From positions 1 to 15,872 of the forward strand of contig JAGBWH010000037.1 of the NCBI GenBank assembly GCA_017629925.1: a stretch of 15,872 bases of DNA, in the 5' to 3' direction. Of this stretch, positions 2,548 to 15,872 are shown one piece after another (position 1 is the stretch's first letter; each line of letters begins with the position of its first letter). Below the pieces are notes generated by a model. It did not search any database. It saw nothing but the letters and a program-made list of their open reading frames with translations, and was not told the origin of the DNA. A program made the translations under genes and the position numbers. This DNA is from Clostridia bacterium (GTDB lineage Bacteria; Bacillota; Clostridia; Oscillospirales; CAG-272).

Positions 2548-2590
2548 TTAAAAAAATAAATATTTGTCAAATAAAGAAAGGAACATTACT

Positions 2591-3415
2591 ATGCAGTCAC
2601 CTTACGAAATCAAAAAAGAAATCTGTGAAATGGGTCGCCGTTTGTATGCTGCAGGCTTCGTTGCTGCCAACGACGGTAACATCTCCGTGAAAGTCAGCGA
2701 CAACGAATATTACTGCACCCCCACAGGCGTGTCTAAAGGCTTTATGACGCCCGACATGATCATCAAAATTGATAGCAACGGCAACAAACTGGAAGGCAAA
2801 CTCAATCCCTCCAGCGAAATCAAAATGCACCTTCGTGTGTATCGTGAACGCCCTGACGTAAAAGCAGTTGTTCACGCACATCCCCCTGTGGCTACCGCAT
2901 TTACCGTTGCAGGTGTGCCCCTCAACCAATACATTCTCCCCGAAGCCGTTTTGTCTTTGGGTGATGTACCTACTTGCGACTACGGCACTCCCTCCACCAT
3001 GGAAATTCCCGATAGCCTCATGCCTTATATCCAAACACATGACGCTTTCCTGCTCAAAAACCACGGCGCATTGACCGTTGGTTGCGACCTGAAAAAAGCC
3101 ATGTTTGTCATGGAAGAAGTAGAATTTAACGCCAAGATTTGTATGTATGCTCGTCAACTCGGCGGCGTGGAAGAAATTCCTTGCGAAGAACTTGAAAAAC
3201 TGATGGAACTCCGCAGAAAATTCAATATGCCCGGCAAACATCCCGGTTGCAAGAAATGCTCTAACTTGGGTACCGAAAAATGCCGTTGCAAAGACAATGC
3301 AGGCAAAAGCACTTGCTCTTGCGGTGACCACGGCGGAAAACCCGCTTCTCCGGCACTTGATGGAGATGTTGTGGCGGAAATCACACGGAGAGTGTTGGCT
3401 GCCCTCGGTCAATAA
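2591..3415 (+). CDS. fucA: Class II aldolase (L-fuculose/rhamnulose-1-phosphate aldolase) with C-terminal encapsulation peptide
   Basis: 274 residues from the ATG at 2591; GAAAGGA at 2576-2582 supports this over a TTG upstream at 2564. Residues 1-212 are a zinc class II aldolase of the FucA/AraD family, with a probable catalytic Glu in PSSEIKMH (E76) and metal ligands in HAHPP (H95, H97) and KNHG (H158). It would split a 1-phosphate of a deoxy-ketohexose into DHAP and lactaldehyde. Residues 216-250 form a polar linker with six cysteines (220, 223, 231, 233, 242, 244). Residues 255-274 form an amphipathic helix (VVAEITRRVLAALGQ) typical of encapsulation peptides. Fuculose aldolases of this kind mark GRM5 microcompartments, so it is likely inside the shell. 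Fuculose versus rhamnulose preference cannot be read from the sequence. The linker function is unknown. Confidence 0.9.
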   Translation: MQSPYEIKKEICEMGRRLYAAGFVAANDGNISVKVSDNEYYCTPTGVSKGFMTPDMIIKIDSNGNKLEGKLNPSSEIKMHLRVYRERPDVKAVVHAHPPVATAFTVAGVPLNQYILPEAVLSLGDVPTCDYGTPSTMEIPDSLMPYIQTHDAFLLKNHGALTVGCDLKKAMFVMEEVEFNAKICMYARQLGGVEEIPCEELEKLMELRRKFNMPGKHPGCKKCSNLGTEKCRCKDNAGKSTCSCGDHGGKPASPALDGDVVAEITRRVLAALGQ

Positions 3416-3448
3416 GCTGACACTTTCTAAAAAGAAAGGAATACAACC

Positions 3449-4909
3449 ATGGCAATGAATTGGACTGAAGCCCAAATCAACCAAGTCGTCACCTCCGTGC
3501 TAAACCAATTAGGCCATGCGGGAGATGCCCCCAAAGCAAAAACCTACAATGCAACTTCCTACGAAGGACGTGCGTTTGTGGGGGTATATAGTGATATGAA
3601 GGACGCCATTGCCGCCGCAGAAGCAGGGTATAAAGCCATTCGCTCTATGTCTGTTGCAGAGCGGGAAAAACTGATCACTCGTATTCGCGAGAAAACCAGA
3701 GAAGAAGCGGCAATTATGGCCTATTTGGGCGTAGCCGAAACGAAAATGGGCCGCGTGGATCATAAAACCGCCAAACATATATTGGTGGCAGACAAAACAC
3801 CCGGCACGGAGGACATTACCTCCTATGCCAAAACAGGCGACTTTGGGCTAACTTTAGTCGAGATGGCTCCCTTTGGTGTGGTGGGGGCAATCACCCCTTC
3901 TACCAATCCCTCGGAGACCGTCATTTGCAATAGCATGGGTATGATCGCGGCAGGCAATGGTGTGGTATTCAACCCCCATCCCGGTGCGATTGCCACCTCA
4001 AACTATGCTGTTGACCTTGTCAACCGTGCTTGCTATGAAGCAGGCGGGCCGAAAGTGCTGGTGGCGTCTGTTGAGAAGCCGACACTTGAAACGGCTGATG
4101 TGATGTATAAGCACCCCTCCATTCGACTGCTGGTCTGCACAGGTGGGCCAGGGGGGGTCAAGAGCGTGCTGTCCTCGGGCAAAAAAGCCATCGGGGCAGG
4201 TGCGGGCAATCCCCCTGTCATCGTGGACGACACGGCAGACATTGAAAAAGCAGGCAAGGATATCATCGACGGATGCACCTTTGATAACAACCTGCCTTGC
4301 ATTGCAGAAAAAGAAGTATTTGCATTTGCAAATATCGCAGACCGCCTGATGGCTTCCATGAAGCAAAACGGCGCCTACCAAATCACCTCAGAGCAAGCCG
4401 AGGCGCTGGCGAAGGTGGTGCTGGTGGAAAAAATCAATCCCAAAACAGGCATTGCGCAAAAAACGATAAGCCGTGACGCTGTGGGCAGAGATGCCAAAGT
4501 ATTGCTTGCTAAAATCGGTGTGACGGTGGGCGATGATGTGCGCTGTATCATCTGCGAAACCGACTTTAACCATCCCTTTGTGCAGGAAGAACTAATGATG
4601 CCCATTTTGCCGATTGTGCGCGTCAGAGATATTGACGAGGCGATTGACCTGGCTTGCAAAGCCGAAGGCGGACGCCGTCATACAGCGCATATGCACTCCA
4701 AGAATGTGGATCATCTCTCTCGCTTTGCCAGAGCGGTGGAAACCACCATTTTCGTTAAAAATGCCCCCTCCTATGCCGGCATCGGCTTTGGTGGAGAAGG
4801 ACATACCACCTTTACCATTGCAGGACCTACCGGGGAAGGCATTACCTCTGCAAAATCCTTTACTCGTCTCCGTCGCTGTGTGATGGTAGATAATTTCCGC
4901 ATTATTTAA
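3449..4909 (+). CDS. pduP: CoA-acylating propionaldehyde dehydrogenase with N-terminal encapsulation peptide
   Basis: 486 residues, of the PduP/EutE aldehyde dehydrogenase group. Residues about 4-22 (NWTEAQINQVVTSVLNQLG) form an amphipathic helix like known encapsulation peptides, followed by a linker to about residue 35. The catalytic domain has AITPSTNPSE (148-156), VCTGGPGGVKSV (229-240) and the catalytic Cys in NNLPCIAEKE (C284). It would convert propionaldehyde, NAD+ and CoA to propionyl-CoA and NADH inside the compartment. AAAGAAAGGA at 3431-3440 precedes the ATG at 3449. An in-frame ATG two codons later is a possible alternative start but would hardly change the protein. Its neighbours, an alcohol dehydrogenase and PduL, use its NADH and its acyl-CoA respectively. 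Confidence 0.95.
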   Translation: MAMNWTEAQINQVVTSVLNQLGHAGDAPKAKTYNATSYEGRAFVGVYSDMKDAIAAAEAGYKAIRSMSVAEREKLITRIREKTREEAAIMAYLGVAETKMGRVDHKTAKHILVADKTPGTEDITSYAKTGDFGLTLVEMAPFGVVGAITPSTNPSETVICNSMGMIAAGNGVVFNPHPGAIATSNYAVDLVNRACYEAGGPKVLVASVEKPTLETADVMYKHPSIRLLVCTGGPGGVKSVLSSGKKAIGAGAGNPPVIVDDTADIEKAGKDIIDGCTFDNNLPCIAEKEVFAFANIADRLMASMKQNGAYQITSEQAEALAKVVLVEKINPKTGIAQKTISRDAVGRDAKVLLAKIGVTVGDDVRCIICETDFNHPFVQEELMMPILPIVRVRDIDEAIDLACKAEGGRRHTAHMHSKNVDHLSRFARAVETTIFVKNAPSYAGIGFGGEGHTTFTIAGPTGEGITSAKSFTRLRRCVMVDNFRII

Positions 4910-4925
4910 GAAAGGACAAATAGAG

Positions 4926-6119
4926 ATGGAACTTAGTGCAAAACAAATCGAAAGTATTGTACGTCAAGTGCTTTCCGAAATGCAAGAACAACCTACCTCT
5001 CATGCCGTCCCTGCAACCGCCAAGGTAGCGATGCTGACAGGTCCTAAACACATCGAGGTAAAAGAATATCCCATTCCCGCTTTGCAAGATGATGATATTT
5101 TGGTGAAAGTAGAAGGTTGCGGTGTGTGTGGAACGGACGTGCACGAATGGCGGGCTGATCCATTTGGCATTATGCCCGTTACCCTTGGTCATGAAGGGAC
5201 AGGCGAAATTGTGGCACTGGGCAAAAATGTCAAGTGCGACACCGCAGGCACACCTCTTAAAGTGGGGGACAAAATCGTTACCTCTGTGATCTCTTGCGGA
5301 GAATGTTATGCTTGCCGTATGCAACCTGCTCGCACCAATCTGTGCGACAAACAAGGCGTGTTTGGGCTGATTCCCCATAGCGACGAGCAACCCCTGACAG
5401 GTTGGTTTTCTACCCACCTGCTCATTCGTGGCAAAGGCTCTACCTATTTTAGAGTCAACGAACTTGACTTAGAGGAGAGAATGTTGCTTGAACTTGCCTG
5501 TGTGTGCGTGCATGCTTTTAACAGAGCCAACGCCACAGGCCTGCTCAACTTTAACAGCCGCGTACTCATTCAAGGTCTTGGCCCTGTGGGGCTGATGCAA
5601 CTCGCTGTACTTCGCGCAGCAGGTATCAACCACATTATTGCCATTGACGGCACACCTCGCCGTTTGGAAATGGCAAAACGCTTGGGTGCAAAAACAGTCA
5701 TTAACTTTACTGAAGTGAAAACCTTAGAAGAACGCGTGAGTATGGTCAAAGGTGTGGCAAATGGTGTTGGTGCTGATTTTGCTTTCCAATGCACAGGCGC
5801 ACCTATGGCAGCCAAGGATATTTTCGAATATATCCGTCGTGGCGGTGGGCTGTGTGAAATGGGCTTCTTCGTCAACAATGGTACATACGAAATCAATCCT
5901 CACTTTGCGATGTGTAATAAAGAGATCAACATTATCGGCTCTTGGGATTACAGCGCAGAAGACTATCCCACCACCGTGGCATTCCTGCTCCAAGCCAGAG
6001 AGATGAATATTCCCATCAAAGAACTCATCACTCACCGCTTCCCGCTACACCAGATGAACGAAGCCATGGAAACCAACGTGTCTCAAAAAGGCATCAAGAT
6101 TTGCTATATTGCAGACTGA
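4926..6119 (+). CDS. Zinc-dependent alcohol dehydrogenase (MDR family) with N-terminal encapsulation peptide
   Basis: 397 residues. The first 20 (ELSAKQIESIVRQVLSEMQ) are an amphipathic helix resembling an encapsulation peptide, followed by a Pro/Ala-rich linker to about residue 31. The rest is a medium-chain dehydrogenase. Catalytic zinc ligands lie in GVCGTD (C68) and GHEGTGE (H89, E90). Structural-zinc cysteines are C124, C127, C130 and C140. The Rossmann motif is GLGPVG (217-222), with an Asp in AIDGTPRR that favours NAD. The last structural spacing is nine residues where seven is usual. It probably reduces propionaldehyde to 1-propanol and may also reduce lactaldehyde to 1,2-propanediol, recycling NADH within the compartment. 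It replaces the iron-type PduQ of B12-dependent pdu operons. The gene lies 16 bases after the aldehyde dehydrogenase gene. Confidence 0.92.
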   Translation: MELSAKQIESIVRQVLSEMQEQPTSHAVPATAKVAMLTGPKHIEVKEYPIPALQDDDILVKVEGCGVCGTDVHEWRADPFGIMPVTLGHEGTGEIVALGKNVKCDTAGTPLKVGDKIVTSVISCGECYACRMQPARTNLCDKQGVFGLIPHSDEQPLTGWFSTHLLIRGKGSTYFRVNELDLEERMLLELACVCVHAFNRANATGLLNFNSRVLIQGLGPVGLMQLAVLRAAGINHIIAIDGTPRRLEMAKRLGAKTVINFTEVKTLEERVSMVKGVANGVGADFAFQCTGAPMAAKDIFEYIRRGGGLCEMGFFVNNGTYEINPHFAMCNKEINIIGSWDYSAEDYPTTVAFLLQAREMNIPIKELITHRFPLHQMNEAMETNVSQKGIKICYIAD

Positions 6120-6128
6120 GAGTAAGCT

Positions 6129-6452
6129 ATGGCAAACGCATTAGGTATGATTGAAGTCTATGGGTTTACCACCGCTATTGTGGTGGCAGACAGGGTGGCA
6201 AAATGCGCCGATGTCAAAATCGTAGCCATAGACAAGAACAAGCCCGCCAATGCAGACAAAGTGGAAGTGCCACTTGTGATGATCGTGAAGTTTGAAGGAG
6301 AAGCGGGGGCAGTGGAGAGTGCGCTGGAGGCAGGCGTGGCAGAAGCCAAGCGCCGTAATCTCTATATCACCTCAAAACTCAATGCCGGTTTTTCTCCCGA
6401 GGCGGAATGGTTTGCACATCTATCTGCATTAGGCAAAGATAAATTAAGATAA
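6129..6452 (+). CDS. BMC-H shell protein with divergent pore loop
   Basis: 107 residues, one BMC domain. The start (MANALGMIEVYGFTTAIVVAD) is typical of hexameric shell proteins. The loop that normally carries KIGSG at the central pore is replaced by a longer polar stretch, KNKPANADKVEVP (residues 36-48), about eight residues longer than in its neighbours. The C-terminus (from about residue 75) also differs from the canonical paralogues and ends in a basic tail, GKDKLR. It therefore probably forms hexamers with a different pore or a specialised role. The ATG lies 9 bases after the dehydrogenase stop, preceded only by a weak GAGAG ribosome binding site, so translation is probably coupled and modest. 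It is the first of four BMC-H genes in a row. Confidence 0.88.
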   Translation: MANALGMIEVYGFTTAIVVADRVAKCADVKIVAIDKNKPANADKVEVPLVMIVKFEGEAGAVESALEAGVAEAKRRNLYITSKLNAGFSPEAEWFAHLSALGKDKLR

Positions 6453-6485
6453 TCAAAAAAACATAACATAAAGGAGAACAAAGAA

Positions 6486-6761
6486 ATGAAAGAAGCACTC
6501 GGAATGGTCGAAACCAGAGGTCTTGTGGCTGCTATCGAAGCAGCAGATGCTATGGTAAAGGCAGCAAACGTTGAACTCATCGGAAGCGAAAAAATCGGCT
6601 CCGGTTTGGTCAGCGTGATGGTTCGTGGCGACGTTGGCGCAGTAAAAGCTGCAGTTGAAGCAGGCGGCGCTGCTGCTCAAGCACTCGGCGAAGTGATCGC
6701 TTTGCATGTGATTCCTCGTCCTCATGCTGACGTGGAAAAAATTCTGCCCTCTCTGAAATAA
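6486..6761 (+). CDS. pduA: BMC-H hexameric shell protein, PduA/EutM-like (copy 1)
   Basis: 91 residues, a canonical single BMC domain. It has [19 protein letters not shown] at the N-terminus, the KIGSGLV pore loop (36-42) and the [14 protein letters not shown] helix segment. Such proteins form flat hexamers that tile the shell facets and let the diol pass through a narrow central pore. A strong AAAGGAG (6470-6476) lies 9 bases before the start. It is nearly identical to the gene at 7111-7383: aligned from EALGM onward, six of 89 positions differ. This points to a recent duplication or ongoing gene conversion. With its twin it is probably a main facet protein. Confidence 0.96.
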
Positions 6762-6771
6762 GATAAAAGAG

Positions 6772-7047
6772 ATGGAAAAGGCGATTGCGCTACTGGAGGT
6801 GCAGGCAAATGTGGCTGCCATCGTGGGACTTGATGCCATGGTGAAAGCCGCAGATGTCACCCTCATTCATGTAGAACGACGTCTGGGCGGCAGACTTGTG
6901 ACTGCTGTGGTAGAAGGCGAAGTGTCGGCGGTTCAAGCAGCTGCCGACGCAGGCGCTCTGGCTGCCGCAGAGGTGGGAAGCGTGAAACTTTGCGAAGTGA
7001 TTGCGCGTCCACATCCGGACGTTATGCGGTTTTTGAAAACCGACTAA
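6772..7047 (+). CDS. BMC-H shell protein with RRLGGR pore loop
   Basis: 91 residues, a single BMC domain (MEKAIALLEVQANVAAIVGLD). The pore loop reads RRLGGR (36-41) in place of KIGSG, one residue longer and with three arginines, so the pore would be more positive. The C-terminal half keeps the usual fold (GEVSAVQAAADAG, VIARPHPDV). It starts 10 bases after the previous gene and has no clear Shine-Dalgarno sequence (only AAGATAAAAGAG), which suggests coupled, lower-level translation. It is probably a minor shell component with a different permeability, perhaps for phosphorylated or CoA-bearing molecules. That role is inference. Confidence 0.93.
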   Translation: MEKAIALLEVQANVAAIVGLDAMVKAADVTLIHVERRLGGRLVTAVVEGEVSAVQAAADAGALAAAEVGSVKLCEVIARPHPDVMRFLKTD

Positions 7048-7110
7048 AAAAGATACCCCCGCACACAAAAAACATATAAAAAAACAATATTTTTAAGGAG
7101 GATTTTCCCA

Positions 7111-7383
7111 ATGGAAGCACTCGGAATGGTAGAAACCAGAGGTCTTGTTGCTGCAATCGAAGCAGCAGATGCTATGGTGAAAGCGGCAAACGTTGTTCTG
7201 ATCGGTAGCGAAAAAATCGGTTCCGGTTTGGTCAGCGTAATGGTTCGCGGTGATGTTGGCGCTGTAAAAGCTGCTGTTGAAGCAGGCGGTGCTGCTGCAC
7301 AATCTCTGGGCGAAGTGGTGGCAATTCACGTCATCCCCAGACCCCACGCAGATGTGGAAAAACTGTTGCCCAGCTTGAACTAA
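7111..7383 (+). CDS. pduA: BMC-H hexameric shell protein, PduA/EutM-like (copy 2)
   Basis: 90 residues, the near-twin of the protein at 6486-6761. They differ at six aligned positions: E/V, A/S, I/V, L/I, I/L and the last residue K/N. The canonical KIGSGLV pore loop is intact. A very strong AAGGAGG (7095-7101) lies 9 bases before the ATG, the best ribosome binding site in the operon. Together with the downstream hairpin at 7394-7424 this suggests high expression as the bulk facet protein. The gene is set off from the previous one by a 63-base A-rich spacer. Confidence 0.96.
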
Positions 7384-7393
7384 TCCCCATAGG

Positions 7394-7424
7394 TGTGCGC
7401 CCAAGGCGAAAACTTGGGCGCACA
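7394..7424 (+). promoter_or_regulatory. Strong GC-rich hairpin after the shell genes
   Basis: TGTGCGCCCAAG (7394-7405) and CTTGGGCGCACA (7413-7424) form a perfect 12-bp stem with the 7-base loop GCGAAAA. No T-run follows (ATACCCCCGC), so it is not a classic intrinsic terminator. It lies 10 bases after the last shell-gene stop in a 150-base gap. It could be an mRNA 3'-stabilising or processing element that raises shell protein levels over downstream genes. The function is inferred. Confidence 0.65.
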
Positions 7425-7533
7425 TACCCCCGCATTTCCTCTCTTTTGAAAGGGAGATAGAGACCGCTGTCTTTATTTCAAAAAAGATGAAAGCACAACT
7501 CATGCATCCGAAACATCGAAAGGAAGTATATCT
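7425..7533 (+). promoter_or_regulatory. Rest of shell-pduL gap, with weak hairpins
   Basis: Two weaker hairpins are possible here. One is TCTCTTT (7440-7446) with AGGGAGA (7451-7457), using G-U pairs. The other is TAGAGAC (7458-7464) with GTCTTTA (7469-7475), followed by a short TTTCA. The second could act as a weak attenuator. No convincing internal promoter was found. AAAGGAAG (7519-7526) is the ribosome binding site of pduL. Confidence 0.35.
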
Positions 7534-8184
7534 ATGATAAACGAAACGCAAGTCAGAGAATTGGTGAGCCGTATCGTCAGAGAGATAGAACAGACAGATC
7601 AAAAGGCAGATATGTCCGTACCCGTTGGGGTATCCAATCGCCATATTCACCTCAGCCGAGAGCACGTGGAGGTGCTATTTGGAGCAGGGTATCAACTGAC
7701 GCATCTCAAGGATCTGTCCCAGCCCGGGCAATATGCCTGCAAAGAAACCCTGACCATCATAGGTCCTTCTATGAGAGCCATTGAAGGGGTGCGGGTGCTT
7801 GGGCCTGAAAGAAAGGCCTCGCAGGTGGAAATTTCTCGCACAGACAGCTTTCAGCTCAAAGTCAAACCGCCCGTTCGTGAGTCGGGCAGGCTGGAAGGCT
7901 CAGCCCCCATTACCATCGTGGGACCAAAAGGCATCGTCACCTTAAAAGAGGGCTGTATTATTGCTAACCGTCATATTCATATGTCCCCCGAAGATGCCGC
8001 ACGATTTGGTGTCAAGGATTTTGACCGTGTGACGGTTGACGTCAATAGTCCCGACCGTCCCGGAACATGGTATGATGTGCAAATTCGTGTGCATCCCGAT
8101 TTTCGTTTGGAAATGCACGTAGATACGGATGATGCCAACGCAGTTGGCATTGGCAACGGCGCAAAAGTCATAATCAAACGGTAA
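7534..8184 (+). CDS. pduL: Phosphate propanoyltransferase PduL with N-terminal encapsulation peptide
   Basis: 216 residues, the usual length for PduL. The first 20 or so (INETQVRELVSRIVREIEQ) form an amphipathic helix typical of encapsulation peptides. Two PduL domains follow, each with an RHIHxS zinc motif: SNRHIHLS (H37, H39) and ANRHIHMS (H147, H149). A further His lies in EMHVDTDDANA (H195). It converts propionyl-CoA and phosphate to propionyl-phosphate and frees CoA for the aldehyde dehydrogenase. AAAGGAAG lies 7 bases before the ATG. The acyl-phosphate can then leave to feed acetate kinase at the start of the operon. Confidence 0.97.
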   Translation: MINETQVRELVSRIVREIEQTDQKADMSVPVGVSNRHIHLSREHVEVLFGAGYQLTHLKDLSQPGQYACKETLTIIGPSMRAIEGVRVLGPERKASQVEISRTDSFQLKVKPPVRESGRLEGSAPITIVGPKGIVTLKEGCIIANRHIHMSPEDAARFGVKDFDRVTVDVNSPDRPGTWYDVQIRVHPDFRLEMHVDTDDANAVGIGNGAKVIIKR

Positions 8185-8205
8185 AAAAGAGAAGAGGTAA
8201 AAGAT

Positions 8206-8454
8206 ATGCAAAAAGGTATTATTGTTGGCACTTTGGTTTCCACTCGTAAGCAAGAGGCTTTGGTGGGCAGTAAATTTATGGAAGTGCAACTCATCAAAAA
8301 CAACCAACCCACAAAAGAGTTCATCATTGCCGTGGATAGCGTGGGCGCAGGGATTGGCGAAACGGTACTCCTCACCATGGGCAGTTCTGCTCGCATGGCA
8401 TTGCAAAATCACAATGCACCTGTGGATGCTGTGATTGTGGGTATTGTGGACTGA
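8206..8454 (+). CDS. pduN: BMC-P pentameric vertex protein (EutN/CcmL/PduN family)
   Basis: 82 residues. It begins MQKGIIVGTLVSTRKQEALVG and has the conserved VDSVGAGIGETVLLTMGSSAR stretch (residues 44-64), followed by PVDAVIVGIVD at the end. Members of this family form pentamers that close the twelve corners of the polyhedral shell. AAGAGGTAAAAG precedes the ATG. The stop lies 4 bases before the next start, so the two genes are probably translationally coupled. Only one BMC-P gene is in the window. Confidence 0.96.
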   Translation: MQKGIIVGTLVSTRKQEALVGSKFMEVQLIKNNQPTKEFIIAVDSVGAGIGETVLLTMGSSARMALQNHNAPVDAVIVGIVD

Positions 8455-8458
8455 TACC

Positions 8459-9793
8459 ATGACACTCAAAGAAATTCTGCAAAATGCAGGCATTGCGGGA
8501 GCAGGTGGCGCAGGGTTTCCTGCCTATGCCAAGCAAGCGCCCGGAGCAGATGTATTTGTCGTCAACGGAGCAGAATGTGAGCCTTTGCTTTATACAGACT
8601 TTACCCTCATCCGTTTGTTTTTGCCCCAAATCGGTGCAGGCGCAGACGCGGTGGTAGAGGCGGCAGGTATGAAGCGAGCTGTGTTGGGCATTGAAAAAGA
8701 AAAAGCCAAAAAACTGTCTCTTGTAGAGGGGCAGTCAATTGGAAAATATACCAAAATTCACCTGCTCCCCGATGCCTACCCCATAGGGGATGAGATTTCT
8801 CTCATTTATGAGACCACGGGACGAGTGGTCACCCCCGGCAAACTCCCCATTACAGCAGGGGTGATTGTGGGCAATGTGGAAAGTGTTCTGCAAATGTATG
8901 CTGCGCTCACCGAAGGGAAACCCGTGACCGATAAGTGGCTCACCGTCGCAGGGGCGGTAAAAGAACCGACGGTGCTCCGTGTGCCCCTCGGCACGCCTGT
9001 AAAAGACATTTTATCCTATTTACATATAGAGATACCCGAAGGGTATATGCTGCTGGACGGTGGCCCTGCGATGGGCAGAAAAATCCAGCCCGAGACGGCG
9101 GTGGTCAAAAAGACCACAAAAGCCCTTACCCTCATCTCGCCCGATACCGAGGCGGCGCTGCAGCGTATGAGAGGGGAGCAGTCTCATAAGGGGCTGGCAT
9201 CAACCGCTTGCTGTCAATGCACCAGATGCACAGACCTATGCCCTCGCTTTTTGCTCGGCTATCCCTTGCAGCCTCATCTGATGGTGAGAGCGGCGTCTTG
9301 CCCCAATCCCAATTTGGAGCTTTTGAAAACCGCCACTCTTTGCTGCGGGTGCGGGATTTGCGAGACGGTGGCTTGTAGCCAAGGCATCTCCCCCAAAAGC
9401 ATTATCGCGGGATACAAAGCCAAACTCCGCCAAGAGAACATGGCATTTACGCCCACACCCGACAGAGACTATGCCCCCTTGGATATGCGGGCATACAGAA
9501 AAGTGCCGGGGGCGAGATACGCCACTCTTTTAGGGGTAGGGAACTATCACCGTATACCTTCAAAAATTGACACCGACTTTGTGGCGCGGAGTGTGAGCAT
9601 TCCGCTTTCGGGGCATATCGGTGCGCCCTCTGTGGCGTGCGTTTCGGTGGGGGATAAAGTAGAAAAAGGGCAAGTGATTGCCACTCCTGCCACGGGGTTA
9701 TCTCTTCCTCAACACGCATCTATCACAGGACGAGTCTCGTCTGTGACCAAAGATGACATTACCATAGAAAACATAGAAAGAAAGGCAGAGTAA
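8459..9793 (+). CDS. pduS: PduS-like Fe-S flavoprotein (RnfC-related NADH dehydrogenase)
   Basis: 444 residues when started at the ATG at 8459, 4 bases after the vertex gene; a TTG 24 bases earlier would overlap that gene and is less likely. The N-terminus has the RnfC-like glycine-rich nucleotide/FMN-binding segment (GIAGAGGAGFPAYAK, 11-25). Two [4Fe-4S] motifs follow: C251-x2-C254-x2-C257-x3-C261-P and C295-x2-C298-x2-C301-x4-C306. The C-terminus has a barrel-sandwich (biotinyl-like) domain, SGHIGAPSVACVSVGDKVEKGQ. In B12-dependent pdu operons PduS reduces cobalamin. There is no B12 enzyme here, so it more likely passes electrons between NADH and the Fe-S centre of the adjacent PduT shell protein. 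That role is inference. Confidence 0.93.
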   Translation: MTLKEILQNAGIAGAGGAGFPAYAKQAPGADVFVVNGAECEPLLYTDFTLIRLFLPQIGAGADAVVEAAGMKRAVLGIEKEKAKKLSLVEGQSIGKYTKIHLLPDAYPIGDEISLIYETTGRVVTPGKLPITAGVIVGNVESVLQMYAALTEGKPVTDKWLTVAGAVKEPTVLRVPLGTPVKDILSYLHIEIPEGYMLLDGGPAMGRKIQPETAVVKKTTKALTLISPDTEAALQRMRGEQSHKGLASTACCQCTRCTDLCPRFLLGYPLQPHLMVRAASCPNPNLELLKTATLCCGCGICETVACSQGISPKSIIAGYKAKLRQENMAFTPTPDRDYAPLDMRAYRKVPGARYATLLGVGNYHRIPSKIDTDFVARSVSIPLSGHIGAPSVACVSVGDKVEKGQVIATPATGLSLPQHASITGRVSSVTKDDITIENIERKAE

Positions 9794-9797
9794 AGCC

Positions 9798-10343
9798 ATG
9801 TACCATGCCATTGGCGTGATTGAACTCAAAAGCATTGCCTTGGGCATTGATGCCACAGATGCGGTGCTCAAAAGTGCAAATGTAAAACTGGTCAGCGCAC
9901 ATCCCTCTTGCCCGGGCAAGTATGAAATACTGCTTACGGGTGCGATTGCCGATGTGACGGCTGCCGTTGACTATATTGAAAGCAAATTCCAGCAAAATAT
10001 CATTGATTGCTCTGTGATGGGCAGAATTGATCCCCAAGTCATTTCTGCGTTGTTTGGGACACAAACAACGCCAAGAGAAGGTAGTTTAGGCATTATCGAG
10101 ACCTATTCTGCCGCAGGTGCGGTCAAAGCCGCAGACTTGGCTGTCAAATGCGCCAAAGTGGAGCTCTATGACCTGCGCCTTGCCCGTGGTATCGGTGGCA
10201 AGGGGATGGTTTTGCTGGTGGGTGATGTAGGAGACGTGACCGCCGCCGTTGAGGCAGGCGCTGCCCATGCCGCAGAAAAAGGACTTTTGGCGCATACGGC
10301 AATCATTGCCGCCCCCCACAAAGAACTGTGGGAACAACTGTAA
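9798..10343 (+). CDS. pduT: BMC-T trimeric shell protein PduT, probable [4Fe-4S] pore
   Basis: 181 residues with two BMC domains in tandem: MYHAIGVIELKSIALGIDATD, and GSLGIIETYSAAGAVKAADLA from about residue 94. Residue C38 in PSCPGKY aligns with Cys38 of Salmonella PduT, which binds a [4Fe-4S] cluster at the trimer centre with one Cys from each subunit. The second domain keeps the GIGGKG loop. It probably carries electrons across the shell in partnership with PduS, whose gene ends 4 bases upstream. GAAAGGCAG inside the end of pduS serves as the ribosome binding site. Confidence 0.95.
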   Translation: MYHAIGVIELKSIALGIDATDAVLKSANVKLVSAHPSCPGKYEILLTGAIADVTAAVDYIESKFQQNIIDCSVMGRIDPQVISALFGTQTTPREGSLGIIETYSAAGAVKAADLAVKCAKVELYDLRLARGIGGKGMVLLVGDVGDVTAAVEAGAAHAAEKGLLAHTAIIAAPHKELWEQL

Positions 10344-10355
10344 AGGAGTGAGACT

Positions 10356-12899
10356 ATGGCCACCTTGGAAAAACTTCCCTATGTGATCCCAAAAAGCCCT
10401 CGTATTGAACGACTGATAGCACATCTTTATGCCAAAATGCCCGAAATCGAGCCATATCGCGCGGAGCTGATTACTGAAAGCTACAAGGCCACCGAGGGGC
10501 TTCCCATTATTCGCCGTCGTAGTGCTGCTTTTCGTCATATTTTGGAAGGCTTGCCCATCGTCATTCGCCCCGAAGAATTGATCGTTGGCGCAAACTCTGT
10601 CGCCCCCCGTGGTTGCCAAACGTATCCTGAATATTCGTTTGAATGGCTGGATGCGGAACTGGATACGGTTGCCACTCGTGAAGCAGATCCTTTTTACATA
10701 TCGGAAGATACCAAACAGCGTCTGCGCACCCTTCACCCCTATTGGAAAGGCAAAACCAACTCCGACCTTGCCGCCGCCAATATGGACCCCCACGCCCTTG
10801 ACGTGTTTTTAAACCATGGCGTGTTTACCGTTGGCAACTATTTCTATAATGGTGTAGGGCATCTTTGTGTTGACTATGCCAGAGTGTTGAGGGAAGGGTA
10901 TAGCGGTATCAAAGCCGAAGCCGAAGAACGTTTAGGCGATTTGGTCGTCGCCTCCTCGGATTACTGCGACCGTCGCAACTTCCTTATGGCGGTGATTGAA
11001 AGCTGTGAAGCGGTCATTTGCTATGCAGAGCGATATAGCAAACTCGCTTTGGATATGGCGCAAAAAGAAAAAAATGCCCAGCGCAAAGCTGAGCTGGAAG
11101 AGATTGCACGTGTGTGTGCGAAAGTGCCAAAAGAAGGGGCTACGAGTTTCCGTGAAGCCTGCCAAGCTTTTTGGTTTGTGCAACAGTTGCTTCAAATGGA
11201 ATCCAGCGGACACTCTATCTCCCCCGGTCGTTTTGACCAGTATATGTATCCCTACTATGAAAGAGATCTCAACGCAGGTAAAATCACCCCCGAACAAGCG
11301 CAAGAACTCATTGACTGCATTTGGGTGAAACTCAACGACTTAAATAAAGTGCGTGATGCCGCTTCTGCCGAAGGTTTTGCAGGCTATGGCTTATTCCAAA
11401 ACCTCATTGTGGGCGGTCAGTTTCCCCATGGCGGAGATGCGACCAATCCCTTGTCATTTATGTGCCTTGAAGCCTCCATTCATGTGAAATTGCCACAACC
11501 CTCGCTCTCCATTCGAGTATGGCAAAACACCCCCCACGATTTGATGATCAAAGCTGCTTCTGTGACGCGTGAAGGGCTGGGCGTACCTGCTTACTATAAC
11601 GACGAAATTATCATTCCTGCCATCATGGCAAGAGGACTTGCCTTAGAGGAAGCCAGAGACTACTGCATTATTGGTTGTGTTGAACCTCAAATCGCCGCCA
11701 AAACCGACGGTTGGCATGATGCCGCATTCTTTAATATGTGCCGTCCGCTTGAGCTGGTATTCTCTAATGGTGTAGATAAGGGCAAGCAAATTGGCCCTAA
11801 GACAGGCGTGCTCACCGATTTTAAGACCTTTGAGTTATTCTATCGCGCGTATTGCATCCAAGAGGCGGCTATGATTGCGCTCATGGTTAATGCCATCAAT
11901 GCCATTGACGCCGCACACGGCACAAGAGTACCTCTGCCGTTCCAATCTTCAATGGTAGAGGATTGCATGGCAAAAGGCAAATCCGTGCAAGAAGGCGGGG
12001 CTCATTATAATTTCTCAGGCCCGCAAGGCTTTGGTATTGCCAACATGACAGATGCGCTTTGGGCCATTCGCCGTTTGGTATATGAACAAAAACGATACAC
12101 CCTCTGCGACTTCAAAGAGGCACTTTCACTCAACTTCGGCAAAGGTTTTCCCAAAAAAGTTGCCTTAGAAATGACGGTTGCAGCGGTTGCAAAAATGGCT
12201 TTGGAAGGCAAAACCCCCTCCGAAAATGACATAAAAGCCATCTACAATCGTCTTGTGACGGATAGTGGCGCAACCAAAGAGCAAAAAGAAAAATTTGAGG
12301 GTATGCTCCGCCACATCGACAGCCTTGAAAAATACGGCAACGATATCGAAGACATTGACCTCTTTGCAAGAGAGGTAGCCTATTCCTATACAAAAGAAGT
12401 AGAACGCTACAAAAACCACCGTGGCGGTGTCTTCCAAGCAGGGCTTTATCCTGTGTCTGCCAACGTACCCCTCGGCGCACAAACGGGTGCCACGCCCGAC
12501 GGTAGATTGGCATACACCCCCTTAGCTGATGGTGTTGGCCCTATGTCAGGCAGAGATAAAAAAGGTCCTACTGCCGCTGCCAACTCTGTGGCAAAACTCG
12601 ACCATGCCAATGCCTCCAACGGCACGCTATTTAACCAAAAATTCCATCCCAATGCGCTCAGTGGCATGCAAGGCTTGGCAAAATTCGCCGCTTTGGTGCA
12701 AGGCTTCTTTGACCAAAAAGGTATGCATATGCAGTTTAATGTGGTCAGCCGTGAAACTTTGCTCGATGCGCAAAAGCATCCGCAAAAATATGCCTCCCTT
12801 GTGGTGCGCGTGGCAGGGTATAGCGCCCTCTTTACCACCCTATCCAAGAGTTTGCAGGACGATATTATTGCGCGTACCGAGCACGCGTGGAACAGATAA
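10356..12899 (+). CDS. Glycyl radical 1,2-propanediol (B12-independent diol) dehydratase
   Basis: 847 residues, full length for a glycyl radical enzyme. The radical loop is VRVAGYSAL with G821, 26 residues from the end. The thiyl Cys is C441 in IIGCVEPQ. Diol dehydratase residues are present by comparison with Clostridium butyricum glycerol dehydratase (H164, H281-S282, C433-E435, D447): H169, H286-S287, E443 and D455 in GWHDAAFFN. It would dehydrate 1,2-propanediol to propionaldehyde, and glycerol use cannot be excluded. No encapsulation-type extension is visible at the N-terminus, which runs straight into the enzyme core (SPRIERLIAHLY). AAAGGAG (10343-10349) precedes the ATG. It is the signature core enzyme of the compartment. 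Its activase follows 66 bases downstream. Confidence 0.95.
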   Translation: MATLEKLPYVIPKSPRIERLIAHLYAKMPEIEPYRAELITESYKATEGLPIIRRRSAAFRHILEGLPIVIRPEELIVGANSVAPRGCQTYPEYSFEWLDAELDTVATREADPFYISEDTKQRLRTLHPYWKGKTNSDLAAANMDPHALDVFLNHGVFTVGNYFYNGVGHLCVDYARVLREGYSGIKAEAEERLGDLVVASSDYCDRRNFLMAVIESCEAVICYAERYSKLALDMAQKEKNAQRKAELEEIARVCAKVPKEGATSFREACQAFWFVQQLLQMESSGHSISPGRFDQYMYPYYERDLNAGKITPEQAQELIDCIWVKLNDLNKVRDAASAEGFAGYGLFQNLIVGGQFPHGGDATNPLSFMCLEASIHVKLPQPSLSIRVWQNTPHDLMIKAASVTREGLGVPAYYNDEIIIPAIMARGLALEEARDYCIIGCVEPQIAAKTDGWHDAAFFNMCRPLELVFSNGVDKGKQIGPKTGVLTDFKTFELFYRAYCIQEAAMIALMVNAINAIDAAHGTRVPLPFQSSMVEDCMAKGKSVQEGGAHYNFSGPQGFGIANMTDALWAIRRLVYEQKRYTLCDFKEALSLNFGKGFPKKVALEMTVAAVAKMALEGKTPSENDIKAIYNRLVTDSGATKEQKEKFEGMLRHIDSLEKYGNDIEDIDLFAREVAYSYTKEVERYKNHRGGVFQAGLYPVSANVPLGAQTGATPDGRLAYTPLADGVGPMSGRDKKGPTAAANSVAKLDHANASNGTLFNQKFHPNALSGMQGLAKFAALVQGFFDQKGMHMQFNVVSRETLLDAQKHPQKYASLVVRVAGYSALFTTLSKSLQDDIIARTEHAWNR

Positions 12900-12965
12900 G
12901 CAAAGTGGCATAGCCACCTTGGCGTGATATACCCTTTGTGATAAAAAAAGAAAGGAGAACACCGT
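12900..12965 (+). promoter_or_regulatory. Gap between dehydratase and activase with a small hairpin
   Basis: GTGGC (12905-12909) and GCCAC (12913-12917) form a short hairpin with an ATA loop. An outer CAAAG (12901-12905) can alternatively pair with CTTTG (12934-12938). No T-run follows. It may lower expression of the activase, which is needed in small amounts, relative to the dehydratase. GAAAGGAG lies just before the activase start. Confidence 0.3.
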
Positions 12966-13754
12966 ATGACAGATTATGCTTCTGTTTCAGGTCGGATATT
13001 TGATATCCAACGCTATTCTATCCATGACGGGCCAGGCATTCGTACGGTGGTCTTTTTCAAGGGTTGCGGTCTGCGATGCAGATGGTGCTGTAATCCCGAG
13101 TCGCAATCGGGCAAAACGGAAATATGGCAAAGGTCGTCTCTCCCCGAAGAGGTTGGCTATGACGTGACTGCGGGGGAAGTCATCAAAGAAGTGTTGCGTG
13201 ACTTGCCCTACTATCGACGTTCAGGCGGTGGCATCACCCTGTCCGGCGGCGAATGTTTACTCCAACCTGATTTCGCCTACGCTCTTTTGTCGCTTGCCAA
13301 AGCGCATGGCATTCATACCGCCATTGAAACGGCGTTGTTTGCTCCCCCCTCTCATGTAGAAAGAATATTGCCGCTGGTGGATGTGGTGCTCATGGATATC
13401 AAGCACATGAACCCCCAAAAGCACAAAGAATTCACAGGGCAAGACAATGTGCGCATCTTGGAAAATGCACGCTATGTAGGTGAGCACGCGCATGATTTGG
13501 TGGTGAGAGTGCCGGTGGTGCCTACCTTTAACGACACCATAGCTGACATTGGTCAAATTGCCGCTTTTGCTCGTCGGTTGCCCCGCGCTCGCGCCATTCA
13601 TTTGCTCCCCTACCATCGGCTGGGGCAGGATAAATACACAGCCCTTTCCCGTGATTATGGCATGGGAGAGATTCCCACACCCACCGATGCGAAAATGCAA
13701 TCGCTACGGCGAGCAGCCGAAACCGCAGGCTTGCCCTGCCAAATTGGTGGCTGA
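12966..13754 (+). CDS. Glycyl radical enzyme activase (radical SAM), short form
   Basis: 262 residues. The radical SAM motif is GCGLRCRWC (C34, C38, C41), preceded by SIHDGPGIRTVVFFKGC, the usual activase signature. GGGITLSGGE (87-97) is the SAM-binding region, and DVVLMDIKHMN and RVPVVPTFND follow. The N-terminus and the rest closely follow the diol-dehydratase activase pattern. However, the auxiliary ferredoxin-like insert with two CxxCxxCxxxC clusters, expected after NPES, is missing and replaced by about twenty residues with no Cys (46-67). The protein is therefore about 40 residues shorter than typical glycerol/diol dehydratase activases and nearer in layout to PflA. It would install the radical on G821 of the dehydratase. 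Confidence 0.94.
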   Translation: MTDYASVSGRIFDIQRYSIHDGPGIRTVVFFKGCGLRCRWCCNPESQSGKTEIWQRSSLPEEVGYDVTAGEVIKEVLRDLPYYRRSGGGITLSGGECLLQPDFAYALLSLAKAHGIHTAIETALFAPPSHVERILPLVDVVLMDIKHMNPQKHKEFTGQDNVRILENARYVGEHAHDLVVRVPVVPTFNDTIADIGQIAAFARRLPRARAIHLLPYHRLGQDKYTALSRDYGMGEIPTPTDAKMQSLRRAAETAGLPCQIGG

Positions 13755-13778
13755 TGCTACCTAAAAAAGGAAAAAGAT

Positions 13779-14132
13779 ATGCAAGATAAAATGAGAATTG
13801 TGCAGGAGTTGGTACCCGGAAAACAGGTAACGCTCGCGCATATTATTGCCAACCCCGATCCCTTGCTTTATGTAAAGCTGGGGCTTGTAGCCGATGAAGA
13901 AACCCGTGTGGACGCCATTGCTATTTTGACCGTAACGCCTGCCGAGGCGGCGGTGATTGCCGCAGACGTTGCCATGAAATCCTCCGGAGTAGAACTTGGT
14001 TTTGTTGACCGTTTCAGCGGTACGCTGATTGTCACAGGCACCGTGTCTCAGGTTGAGTCCGCCATGGAAGCGACCTGCCGTTATCTTGAGGATAAAATCG
14101 GATGCACGGTGTGCCCCGTTACCCGTACCTAA
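13779..14132 (+). CDS. pduU: Permuted BMC-H shell protein (PduU/EutS family)
   Basis: 117 residues. The N-terminus MRIVQELVPGKQVTLAHIIANP is the hallmark of PduU/EutS. In PduU this segment forms a beta-barrel cap over the hexamer pore. The circularly permuted BMC domain follows (AIAILTVTPAEAAVIAADVAMKSS, FVDRFSGTLIVTG) and the protein ends in CPVTRT as in PduU. It is probably a minor shell component. In pdu systems PduU has been linked with PduV, and here pduV follows with one base between the genes, consistent with that partnership. Confidence 0.95.
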   Translation: MQDKMRIVQELVPGKQVTLAHIIANPDPLLYVKLGLVADEETRVDAIAILTVTPAEAAVIAADVAMKSSGVELGFVDRFSGTLIVTGTVSQVESAMEATCRYLEDKIGCTVCPVTRT

Positions 14133-14133
14133 T

Positions 14134-14562
14134 ATGAAAAAATTATTGCTCATCGGGCGAAGTGAGGCAGGAAAAACCAGCCTCATTCAATGTCTCAAAG
14201 GAGAGATGCTCCACTATGAAAAAACGCAAACGATGTCGCTTTCAGGCGCATTTATTGACTCGCCCGGAGAATATGTCCAAACGGTGCCTTATGGCAGAGC
14301 CTTGGCACTTTATGCCTATGAAGCGGATGTGGTGGGGTTGCTTATCTCGGCTGACGAGCCGTTTACCTTGTTTTCGCCCGGGATTACCTCGCTTGTCAAC
14401 CGCCCTGTGATTGGGATTGTGACAGGTATAGACAAGCCCGAGGCAGATATTGCCCTCGCTGAAAGCCGACTGCGCCTCACGGGATGCGAGACCATTTTCC
14501 GCGTGAGTGCCTACACGGGCGAAGGGATCTCTGAACTTTTAGAATATTTATCTCAAAAATGA
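14134..14562 (+). CDS. pduV: PduV/EutP-like small GTPase
   Basis: 142 residues from the ATG at 14134, one base after the pduU stop. An earlier in-frame start inside pduU is unlikely because the protein would then lack the family's normal N-terminus. Motifs: P-loop GRSEAGKT (8-15), G3-like DSPGEY (42-47) and a G4 position reading TGID (97-100) instead of [NT]KxD, followed by SAYTGEG in the G5 position. The lost Lys may weaken guanine specificity. No clear Shine-Dalgarno is seen, so translation is likely coupled to pduU. PduV has been reported to sit on the shell surface and to be connected with compartment movement. Here it directly precedes a ParA-type ATPase gene. Confidence 0.9.
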   Translation: MKKLLLIGRSEAGKTSLIQCLKGEMLHYEKTQTMSLSGAFIDSPGEYVQTVPYGRALALYAYEADVVGLLISADEPFTLFSPGITSLVNRPVIGIVTGIDKPEADIALAESRLRLTGCETIFRVSAYTGEGISELLEYLSQK

Positions 14563-14584
14563 TAGACAAAAAAGGAGATTTGTC

Positions 14585-15370
14585 ATGACAAAAGTGCTAT
14601 GCTTTGCCAATAATAAAGGCGGAAGCGGAAAGTCGACCACTTGCTCGTCTGTGGGCTATGTGCTGGCAGGAAAGGGCAAAAAAGTGTTGCTCGTGGATGC
14701 CGACGGTCAAATGAATTTGACACTATCTTGCTTTTCCGAAGAGCAAGCCCTTGGGTTTTTAGAGGAAAACAAACACCTTTACTATGGGCTGTCGTCTCAA
14801 GTCTCCCCCCAGACACTTGTTGTTGCCACGGATTTTGAAAATCTCTATATGCTCCCCGGCTCTCCTGCTTTAAGCCAAATGGAAGGGGTGCTTCATGGCG
14901 CATACGAAAAACAGTTTGTGCTTCGGAAATATTTGGAACGTATCAAAAAAGAGAATTTGTATGATTATATACTTATAGATGCACCGCCTGCGCTCAGCGA
15001 CTGGACTACCAACATCATGTGTGCATCTGACGGCTTAATTATTCCCGTAGAGGCAAGCCCTTGGGGATTGTTTGGACTCGCCAATATGCTGGAGTTTTAT
15101 ACAAATACCCTTCTCTATGCACCTGACCTGCAACTCTATGGGGTGCTTGTGACCAAAGCCGATGTGCGCAAAAATTACTTTAAGCAAACCATGGAGACAC
15201 TATCCGCTTTGCCTGACGTTCGTGTGTTTTCGACCGTTATTCACGTGGATAGCCATGTGGAGTGGGCGCAAGAAAACAGCCGTCCCGTAGGGGCGTATGC
15301 CAAGAGCTGTCGCGCTGCCAAAGAATATGTAAAACTCGCAAAGGAGATAGAAGAGTATGCCGGTTGGTAA
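14585..15370 (+). CDS. ParA/MinD-type ATPase, probable McdA-like compartment-positioning protein
   Basis: 261 residues, a compact ParA without an N-terminal DNA-binding extension (as in ParA of type Ib and McdA). The deviant Walker A motif KGGSGKST (11-18) keeps the signature lysine K11. The Walker A' motif is VDADGQMN (37-44), Walker B is YILIDAPP (128-135), and LPGS occurs at 90-93. Such ATPases dimerise on ATP, bind the nucleoid non-specifically and move cargo by partner-stimulated hydrolysis. The strong AAAGGAG ribosome binding site, co-directional place at the end of the operon and 14-base overlap with a small partner-like gene point to spacing of the microcompartment rather than a chromosome or plasmid. 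No parS-like sites or ParB gene are in the window. The cargo assignment is inference. Confidence 0.88.
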   Translation: MTKVLCFANNKGGSGKSTTCSSVGYVLAGKGKKVLLVDADGQMNLTLSCFSEEQALGFLEENKHLYYGLSSQVSPQTLVVATDFENLYMLPGSPALSQMEGVLHGAYEKQFVLRKYLERIKKENLYDYILIDAPPALSDWTTNIMCASDGLIIPVEASPWGLFGLANMLEFYTNTLLYAPDLQLYGVLVTKADVRKNYFKQTMETLSALPDVRVFSTVIHVDSHVEWAQENSRPVGAYAKSCRAAKEYVKLAKEIEEYAGW

Positions 15371-15650
15371 AAGTAGTTTAACTCGTGCGGCTGAAAGTGC
15401 TGCCGCCGCCAAAAAGAAAAAACCTACCAAAATTGAAAAACCCGCCACAGACGTAGAGGCTATGCCTATTGAAGTGGCAGAGGAGGGCATCCCCACCCCA
15501 GAGCCTATGATCCCTGAAGTGACGCCAGAAGAATTGGCATTGCCCAATGCGGTGGGCATTGAATTTCCGGGAGTAGTTGATCCCATGCCTGAGCTTGAGC
15601 ATAAGCATTTTGTGGCGATTGGGGATGATTTACCCATCCATTTGCTATAA
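15357..15650 (+). CDS. Small basic/acidic protein, candidate partner of the ParA-like ATPase (McdB-like role)
   Basis: 97 residues, start overlapping the end of the ATPase gene by 14 bases; AAGGAGAT (15341-15348) lies 8 bases before the ATG. I do not recognise a database family. Residues 1-25 are strongly basic (VGKSSLTRAAESAAAAKKKK), resembling the short N-terminal peptides with which ParB-type partners stimulate ParA. Residues 28-62 are rich in Pro, Glu and Ala, with no predicted fold. Residues 63-97 contain more hydrophobic residues (NAVGIEFPGVV, HFVAIGDDLPIHLL) and could bind the shell or cargo. It has no tryptophan or glutamine-rich region as carboxysomal McdB proteins do. An adaptor linking the ATPase to the shell is the best guess. 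This is inference from gene order and composition. Confidence 0.75.
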   Translation: MPVGKSSLTRAAESAAAAKKKKPTKIEKPATDVEAMPIEVAEEGIPTPEPMIPEVTPEELALPNAVGIEFPGVVDPMPELEHKHFVAIGDDLPIHLL

Positions 15651-15663
15651 GTGATTTTGAGTA

Positions 15664-15718
15664 AAAAAAGCGATTTTCTCTTATTTTTGGCGTGTGCCAA
15701 AGAGAAAATCGCTTTTTT
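15664..15718. terminator. Bidirectional intrinsic terminator
   Basis: A perfect 19-bp stem: A6-GCGATTTTCTCTT (15664-15682) pairs with AAGAGAAAATCGC-T6 (15700-15718) around a 17-base loop. T-runs follow on both strands. It lies between the last operon gene and the convergent minus-strand gene and ends transcription from both sides. It marks the 3' edge of the microcompartment operon. Confidence 0.93.
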
Positions 15719-15728
15719 GATGGAAGTT

Positions 15729-15872
15729 TTATACCTCCTCGGCTTGTCCCACTTGGGTGGGGGTGATGGCGGCGCAAACGATTTCGTCTGCTTGTGCCAC
15801 AGAAATGTCAAGCACCAGAGAAAGTTCACTATATAAATTGTCTTGGGCTTTCTTTTCAAAGTCGGTATCGGC
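15729..15872 (-). CDS. 3' end of an unrecognised minus-strand gene
   Basis: On the minus strand an open frame enters from the window edge and runs 47 codons to a TAA at 15729-15731. The C-terminal residues include NLYSELSLVLDISVAQADE and end QVGQAEEV. The start lies outside the window. Codon use fits the neighbours, and the stop lies 11 bases from the bidirectional terminator as expected for a converging gene. I do not recognise the product and it need not belong to the microcompartment system. Confidence 0.5.
   Translation of the reverse strand, partial: ADTDFEKKAQDNLYSELSLVLDISVAQADEIVCAAITPTQVGQAEEV

Follow-up and report, generated by a model that had tools for sequence, protein, structure and literature searches.

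The window analysed here, a 15,872-nt stretch of a Clostridia genome, ends with a ParA/Soj-type ATPase gene and an overlapping gene for a 97-aa protein, both built into the 3′ end of a bacterial microcompartment (BMC) operon. Our analysis is best explained if the two products form a dedicated BMC-positioning pair, most likely acting through a ratchet of the McdAB type, and we regard this explanation as quite likely. The ATPase falls in a clade tied to microcompartments, and its partners share two short conserved ends, between which some of them hold a ParB fold.

Gene pair at the end of a GRM5-type operon

The window contains a single co-directional operon, running from ackA to the small ORF, with intergenic gaps of -14 to 150 nt. 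The gene order is ackA, class II aldolase, aldehyde dehydrogenase, zinc alcohol dehydrogenase, four BMC-H genes, pduL, eutN, pduS-like, pduT-like, glycyl radical enzyme, activase, eutS, eutP, parA, and the 97-aa ORF, followed by a hairpin. The names acetate kinase, PduS-like, and PduT-like are assignments made from sequence and domain content. The principal features, in window coordinates, are as follows.

1351..13754, + strand: GRM5-type BMC operon upstream of the pair (ORFs with Pfam and NCBIfam domains)
13779..14132, + strand: EutS-like BMC shell protein (Pfam BMC, 2.6e-13; the NCBIfam EutS subfamily match is below its cut-off)
14134..14562, + strand: EutP/PduV-family GTPase, directly upstream of parA (Pfam PduV-EutP, 1.1e-45)
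14585..15370, + strand: ParA/Soj-type ATPase, 261 aa (ORF; Pfam AAA_31, 1.7e-44)
14615..14638, + strand: deviant Walker A, residues 11-18 (KGGSGKST; K11, G12, G13, S14, G15, K16, and T18 invariant in 21 homologues)
14966..14980, + strand: Walker B region, residues 128-132 (L130 and D132 invariant in 21 homologues)
15357..15650, + strand: 97-aa partner, candidate McdB-like adaptor (ORF; same-position homologues at 15/15 genus loci)
15357..15416, + strand: N-terminal motif of the partner, residues 1-20, predicted ParA contact (table of 68 partners; AlphaFold helix 5-19, block pLDDT 85 and 77)
15606..15647, + strand: C-terminal motif of the partner, residues 84-97, ending LPIHLL, predicted organelle-docking tail (68 partners; pLDDT about 86)
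15664..15718, + strand: terminator-like hairpin at the operon end (-28.8 kcal/mol, z = -7.9)

The parA gene and the 97-aa ORF overlap by 14 nt. None of 200 shuffled sequences folded as well as the hairpin, which did not appear in the output of a consensus terminator scan of positions 13700-15872. GRM5 loci combine an aldolase, a lactaldehyde reductase, and a glycyl radical enzyme with PduS and PduT, and have an activase without the ferredoxin insertion (excerpts of PMC6325248). In the window, an aldolase, a zinc alcohol dehydrogenase, a glycyl radical enzyme, PduS, and PduT occur in a single locus, and the operon content fits GRM5 as those excerpts define it. The original prediction, which placed an overlapping pair, co-directional with shell genes, at the end of a glycyl-radical microcompartment operon, is thus borne out. 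At all 15 homologous loci in other genomes of the genus, parA stands directly 3′ of eutP, and a small ORF bearing the same end motifs adjoins it downstream; the arrangement is therefore not a product of chance.

Some further observations concern the operon itself. Because the EutP/PduV GTPase gene (14134-14562) adjoins parA, two NTPase families, each proposed to place BMCs, are neighbours. In two members of the genus (L036 and L045), the glycyl radical enzyme and its activase are missing between pduT and eutS, and the rest of the operon, ParA, and the partner are kept. BMC-H genes 2 and 4 of the window (6486-6761 and 7111-7383) are 93% identical over 89 residues, and gene 4 is the best match for two BMC-H genes at 11 of the 15 relatives' loci. 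The contig begins with an A-rich segment (1-258) of short repeated units, translated as TILKPPKE repeats.

Phylogenetic position of the ATPase

The Walker A, A′, and B motifs of the ATPase are intact, and the aspartates of the A′ motif, D38 and D40, are likewise invariant in the alignment of 21 homologues. Besides AAA_31, the protein matches Pfam CbiA (3.7e-18), and it has the features of a ParA-type deviant Walker A ATPase, as had been claimed for it. Its nearest solved relatives in a PDB search were ParA/Soj proteins. A profile built from 21 clade members scored 144 bits against 8ray and 115 bits against Soj (6iub), versus 70 bits against the McdA-labelled chain 6noo. McdA was rejected on these scores as the closest kin, the ATPase being not specially McdA-like. 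As judged from sequence, a BMC-linked ParA nearer to Soj than to McdA looks new.

Among 59 relatives, the ParA matches fell into two classes, one of matches with at least 46% identity (E < 1e-75), in 16 genomes, and one of other full-length matches, which do not exceed 35%. The next-best match below the clade had an E-value of 7.9e-36 and 34% identity, and short partial matches in the same search reached 48% over 50 residues. A separate full-length Soj-like ParA (≤35% identity) is present in most of these relatives, the clade carriers included. The comparison set comprised 18 ParAs, of which 16 came from the relatives and 2 from plasmid records. For 8 of them, the sequence that follows showed a ParB with a G[LI]G[KRM]GLxxxF-like motif at its start, which marks the chromosomal type; elsewhere the following gene was unreadable or different.

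Two trees were built, both quick and with long outgroup branches, and in each the BMC-linked ParAs formed one clade. In the first (115 rows), with 16 genomic and 4 plasmid-record ParAs and one alpha-McdA as outsiders, the clade comprised 94 rows (SH-aLRT 99), and the alpha-McdA lay on a branch too long to place. The second (117 rows), made by removing three plasmid rows and the McdA and adding six rows from family f76, gave a clade of 100 rows with a support of 99. The nearest outsider sampled was L146, from an Acetoanaerobium record of 2.6 Mb that is classed as a plasmid, in which a full ParB (ParB_N plus HTH) adjoins parA. Plasmid and phage origins of the window's ParA were both rejected: a ParA match was found in 3893 plasmid records, all below 60% identity, and the best identity among the matches listed was 35.4% for plasmids and 34.6% for phages. 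The window's ParA is placed by these comparisons in a BMC-tied clade apart from the sampled chromosomal Soj-like and plasmid ParAs, the outcome that had been anticipated for an organelle-dedicated ATPase.

Co-occurrence of the ParA clade with microcompartments

Among the 59 relatives, BMC domains score over the cut-off in 16 genomes, and the 16 clade carriers are these same genomes (Fisher 9e-15, uncorrected for kinship); one further relative had a sub-threshold BMC hit of 22 bits. In a class-wide sample, the clade occurred in 3 of 391 genomes, all three EutN-positive, versus 107 of 391 overall (p = 0.02). Because only 3 of the 107 EutN-positive genomes carry it, and most BMC genomes in this sample are without it, the clade is best regarded as an accessory of certain BMC types. 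All nine genomes of family f76 carry the clade, and EutN was found in eight; in the ninth (G469, 76% complete), neither EutN nor any BMC domain was found. In a second family, that of G069, EutN was present in 21 of the 22 carriers versus 56 of all 200 genomes (p = 2e-12), a value that, like the others, overstates the linkage because both families were picked for a member carrying the clade and the genomes are related. The 22nd, EutN-negative carrier had one BMC-domain match. The predicted co-occurrence with shell genes was thus seen both among the relatives and in the second family.

We examined 95 ParA loci, namely the 15 of the genus and the best 80 of 521, which are not a random draw and include two repeats. 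BMC genes lay inside the locus in 57 of these, and for each of the remaining 38, BMC domains are present elsewhere in the genome (23 + 15). Four f76 loci (L155, L156, L158, and L159) have ParA and a ParB_N-containing partner ending in LPxYLL or [LM]PTFLL, with no BMC gene in the stretch examined, and in all four the pair is followed by a gene for a protein of 441-444 aa. In Robinsoniella (L126) and Konateibacter (L070), an iron-type alcohol dehydrogenase gene (identified by Pfam in L126) lies 3′ of the pair, and the BMC operon is elsewhere.

Two conserved ends of the partner protein

The 97-aa protein matched no Pfam or NCBIfam family at E ≤ 0.001. A search with its single sequence returned, besides itself, only P0122 and P0123, and the partners were therefore traced by gene position. 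A partner with both end motifs adjoins parA at 69 of the 95 loci (67 distinct proteins), and one further partner locus (L053) is broken at a contig end. The partner genes start between 7 bases before and 47 bases after the last matched parA base. Including that of the window, the 68 partners are 63-215 aa long (median 116).

The N-terminal consensus is M-x-[IV]-G-K-x-S-[IL]-x-[RK] and the C-terminal consensus [LM]-P-x-[YHFW]-L-[LM]. The 67 partners were selected by G at position 4, residue classes at 3, 5, 7, and 8, P at -5, and residue classes at -6, -2, and -1, so positions 10 and -3 lie outside the rule. Over the 68 partners, G4 occurs in 68, K5 in 65, S7 in 64, I or L at position 8 in 68, and R or K at position 10 in 66; at the other end, L or M stands at -6, P at -5 in 68/68, and position -3 is invariably occupied by a ring residue (Y in 39, H in 17, F in 7, and W in 5). 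The 15 genus partners had first been examined with no motif filter, and both ends were found in all 15. When the two rules were counted apart, all 63 small ORFs near parA that satisfied the N-terminal rule also satisfied the C-terminal one, while one stray ORF satisfied the C-terminal rule alone and 25 satisfied neither. Among 9983 small ORFs elsewhere in the loci, 20 matched the N-terminal rule only, 24 the C-terminal rule only, and 4 both. As a search away from parA found no ORF matching both rules, these 4 are interpreted as partner ORFs called from a start farther upstream. A profile of the partners retrieved 347 proteins at E ≤ 0.001 from 7997 candidates; none of the 120 listed carries a named function.

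In the AlphaFold model of the window's protein, residues 5-19 form a helix, the middle is of low confidence, and the tail is extended and confidently predicted. The middle of the partners is variable and probably disordered; it is rich in K, A, T, E, and P (K 20% and A 19% over the 68 partners), with a mean column identity of 17%. The original prediction had described the partner as basic and then acidic. This is correct for the window's protein, with net charges of +6 over residues 1-30 and -14 over residues 31-97, but it is not a conserved feature of the family, in which the termini are conserved and the middle varies. The first 20 residues are positively charged in 63 of the 67 locus partners.

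The pairing of the ATPase with an adjacent partner likewise holds at most loci but not in one ParA subclade. The 25 loci without an adjoining partner all belong to one clade (support 92 in the first tree). In 24 of them (L076, L084, L095, L103, L112, and L118 are among the partnerless set), parA is directly followed by an AraC-type gene; the 25th, L075, has neither an AraC-type nor an FGGY gene and a different gene after parA. An FGGY-kinase gene lies at most 2.2 kb downstream of parA in 20 of the 25, and an HD-domain gene at most 160 bases upstream in 22, with one more about 1.1 kb upstream; these domain names come from Pfam in L084 and L103. The partner profile found no match in 11 partnerless genomes, although it was weak even on the Robinsoniella positive control (E = 0.36). 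No ORF with both motifs was found in seven BMC operons of partnerless genomes (that of L137 is broken at a contig end), and two BMC operons of partner-bearing genomes were likewise without one; in the same search, the C-terminal rule by itself was satisfied by three ORFs, all antisense or stray. In f76, two of six loci have no adjacent partner. Because the partnerless clade is nested within the partner-bearing set on both trees, loss or relocation of the partner is likely.

ParB/Srx core in some partners

ParB_N (PF02195) was found in 6 of the 58 partners scanned out of the 67, over the Pfam cut-off in 4 (best L123, 38.9 bits), and in all 4 f76 partners, from six loci, over the cut-off at 36-54 bits. 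These partners keep both end motifs. The scanned partners, from the loci and from f76, gave no HTH_ParB match, and the ParB_N fold is absent from the window's own 97-aa protein. In a Foldseek search, the model of the L122 partner (pLDDT 72-83 in the block of residues 31-90, 60 over the whole) was closest to Myxococcus ParB and also matched Noc and KorB (best E 5.5e-6). The L123 partner is 28% identical to the L146 ParB over 110 columns. A partner ORF of f76 (L159:9250-10731), which begins inside parA, combines a ParB_N core with a long K/A/P linker and looks like an intermediate.

Plain parsimony on the first tree required three changes for ParB_N. In the second tree, where deep supports are 48-88, the f76 branch with ParB_N lies at the base and the other ParB_N partners are scattered, a pattern that would fit an ancestral ParB core followed by repeated loss. 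A ParB/Srx fold between the same end motifs, with no detected DNA-binding domain, looks new. We found no mention of a ParB-fold BMC adaptor in the papers searched, and the main text of a 2025 survey of the ParB-CTPase fold (PMC12704722) contains none of the terms microcompartment, carboxysome, or McdB.

Comparison with known positioning systems

The idea of a BMC-positioning pair is not in itself new, since McdB-like proteins near GRM loci have been published. According to excerpts of PMC11321042 and PMC8262871, bioinformatic work has reported McdAB-like pairs near PDU and GRM loci, which weakens the original prediction on this point; McdAB-like genes near EUT and PDU operons also appear in part of PMC13052382, and ParA is listed as an ancillary BMC family in part of PMC4207490. 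The word ParA does not occur as a whole word in PMC6325248, and in PMC3557285 "para" occurs twice, in the excerpts as part of "parallel" and "paradoxes".

Like McdA, the window's ATPase is encoded within a BMC operon with its partner directly downstream. The alpha-McdAB systems of Halothiobacillus and of a Nitrobacter hamburgensis plasmid (L150, called McdAB here from its place and tail) likewise consist of a ParA-type ATPase and an overlapping small partner in a BMC operon, and their partners share a short C-terminal motif in which acidic residues lie near an aromatic one. In H. neapolitanus McdB (alpha-McdB), the N-terminal 20 residues are necessary and sufficient for interaction with McdA, and the C-terminal aromatic motif binds carboxysomes (parts of PMC12204374 and PMC11321042). 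The partners studied here have the layout of carboxysome McdB, with conserved ends and a variable middle, and the window's protein, small, charged at the N-terminus, and largely disordered in its predicted model, resembles McdB in these respects. However, the Nitrobacter ParA is short (211 aa) and its partner ends in RIWPD, whereas the window's ATPase is 261 aa and Soj-like, and the tail LPx[YHFW]L[LM] requires no Trp; the invariant C-terminal Trp of McdB is absent from the window's protein, which ends LPIHLL. As sequence closeness to McdA and a C-terminal Trp were both looked for and not found, we treat the pair as a variant and not as a member of McdAB.

The McdB-like proteins of PDU and GRM loci are described as small BMC-linked partners having no Trp, with Y or F within the last five residues (Basalla 2024; excerpts of PMC11321042). 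Those of GRM loci are probably the partner family described here. In the window's tail, His stands at -3 and the last five residues contain no Y, F, or W, as in 17 of the 68 partners; the other 51 have Y, F, or W there. A ParB/Srx core is not mentioned in the excerpts of that paper.

The resemblance to Soj/Spo0J lies in the Soj-like ATPase, in the ParB_N fold of some partners, and in the partner start [IV]GKxS[IL], which recalls the ParA-binding motif LG[R/K]GL of ParB (excerpts of PMC12704722). The present pair differs in having no HTH among the partners scanned, in its BMC linkage, and in its separate ParA clade. PadC of Myxococcus, in which a ParB/Srx domain recruits ParA to a non-DNA structure, the bactofilin cytoskeleton (excerpts of PMC12704722), ranked 14th among the Foldseek matches of the L122 model, with a loose superposition (rmsd 10.8 over 136 columns). 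PadC has a different cargo, however, and the window's own partner is without the ParB fold.

Proposed mechanism and alternatives

If the pair positions microcompartments, ATP-bound ParA dimers would coat the nucleoid, and the 97-residue partner would act as a two-ended adaptor. The C-terminal tail would attach the adaptor to the BMC shell or to a protein bound to the shell; the basic helix at the N-terminus would contact the ParA dimer and stimulate ATP hydrolysis. Each BMC would thereby clear the ParA near it and move up the remaining ParA gradient, so that the organelles would become spaced and both daughter cells would inherit them. Some BMCs evidently have no positioning system of this type, since Salmonella Pdu BMCs are unaffected by heterologous McdAB, native ParA, and MinD (part of PMC12866334).

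The pair could instead be an ordinary chromosome or plasmid partition pair lying beside a BMC operon by chance, as the ParA fold, the Soj-like nearest solved relatives, the ParB_N domain of some partners, and the full ParB next to parA in L146 might suggest. This is very unlikely, because most relatives, carriers included, have a separate full-length Soj-like ParA, the clade tracks BMC genes among the relatives and in the family samples, the matches in the 3893 plasmid records are distant (the best one listed at the 35.4% given above), and the scanned partners revealed no HTH_ParB. Another possibility is a role of the pair in BMC assembly, maturation, or cargo condensation and not in positioning, with a K/A/P-rich partner that nucleates or tunes condensates and a ParA that regulates it. 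McdB proteins do form condensates (excerpts of PMC11321042), the low-complexity middle is of suitable composition, and the C-terminal tail might function as a motif for cargo or assembly; yet it is the ends that are conserved, as in a tether, whereas the middle is unconserved and in some partners holds, or is replaced by, a ParB fold, and we consider this improbable.

It is also conceivable that ParA and EutP/PduV make up a joint NTPase module in which the partner links ParA to EutP and not to the shell. The position of eutP directly upstream of parA at all 15 genus loci would agree with this, as would the suggestion that PduV positions Pdu BMCs (excerpts of PMC8262871). The tail motif is unchanged, however, in 13 loci where the pair has neither a BMC gene nor eutP as a neighbour, and also in the four f76 loci, which leaves such a module little credibility. 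We therefore retain the dedicated positioning pair as the preferred reading.

Origin and significance of the adaptor

The putative positioning pair probably descends from a module of the Soj/ParB type that was recruited separately from carboxysome McdAB, the direction of evolution being inferred. Its partner would have lost the DNA-binding half of ParB and gained a shell-docking tail, and in most lineages, including that of the window, the ParB/Srx core would then have been lost too, leaving two short motifs on a disordered tether. The fuller proposition, that the BMC adaptors are remodelled ParB proteins, captured by a metabolosome, deprived of the DNA-binding domain, supplied with the LPx[YHFW]L[LM] tail, and mostly stripped of the CTP-fold, seems to us evenly balanced between being right and wrong. 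Some of the surviving ParB/Srx cores may bind nucleotide and gate attachment to the organelle.

McdB-like adaptors are short and disordered, which makes their origin hard to trace, and this family of pairs offers apparent intermediates between ParB and a protein of two motifs. As both ends of the adaptor now have a sharp motif, its docking site on the shell can be sought. Many of the loci come from gut metagenomes, which gives the pair a bearing on fucose- and rhamnose-using gut bacteria. If the proposed origin is true, McdB-like orphan adaptors can arise from a ParB stripped down to two motifs, independently of carboxysome McdAB.
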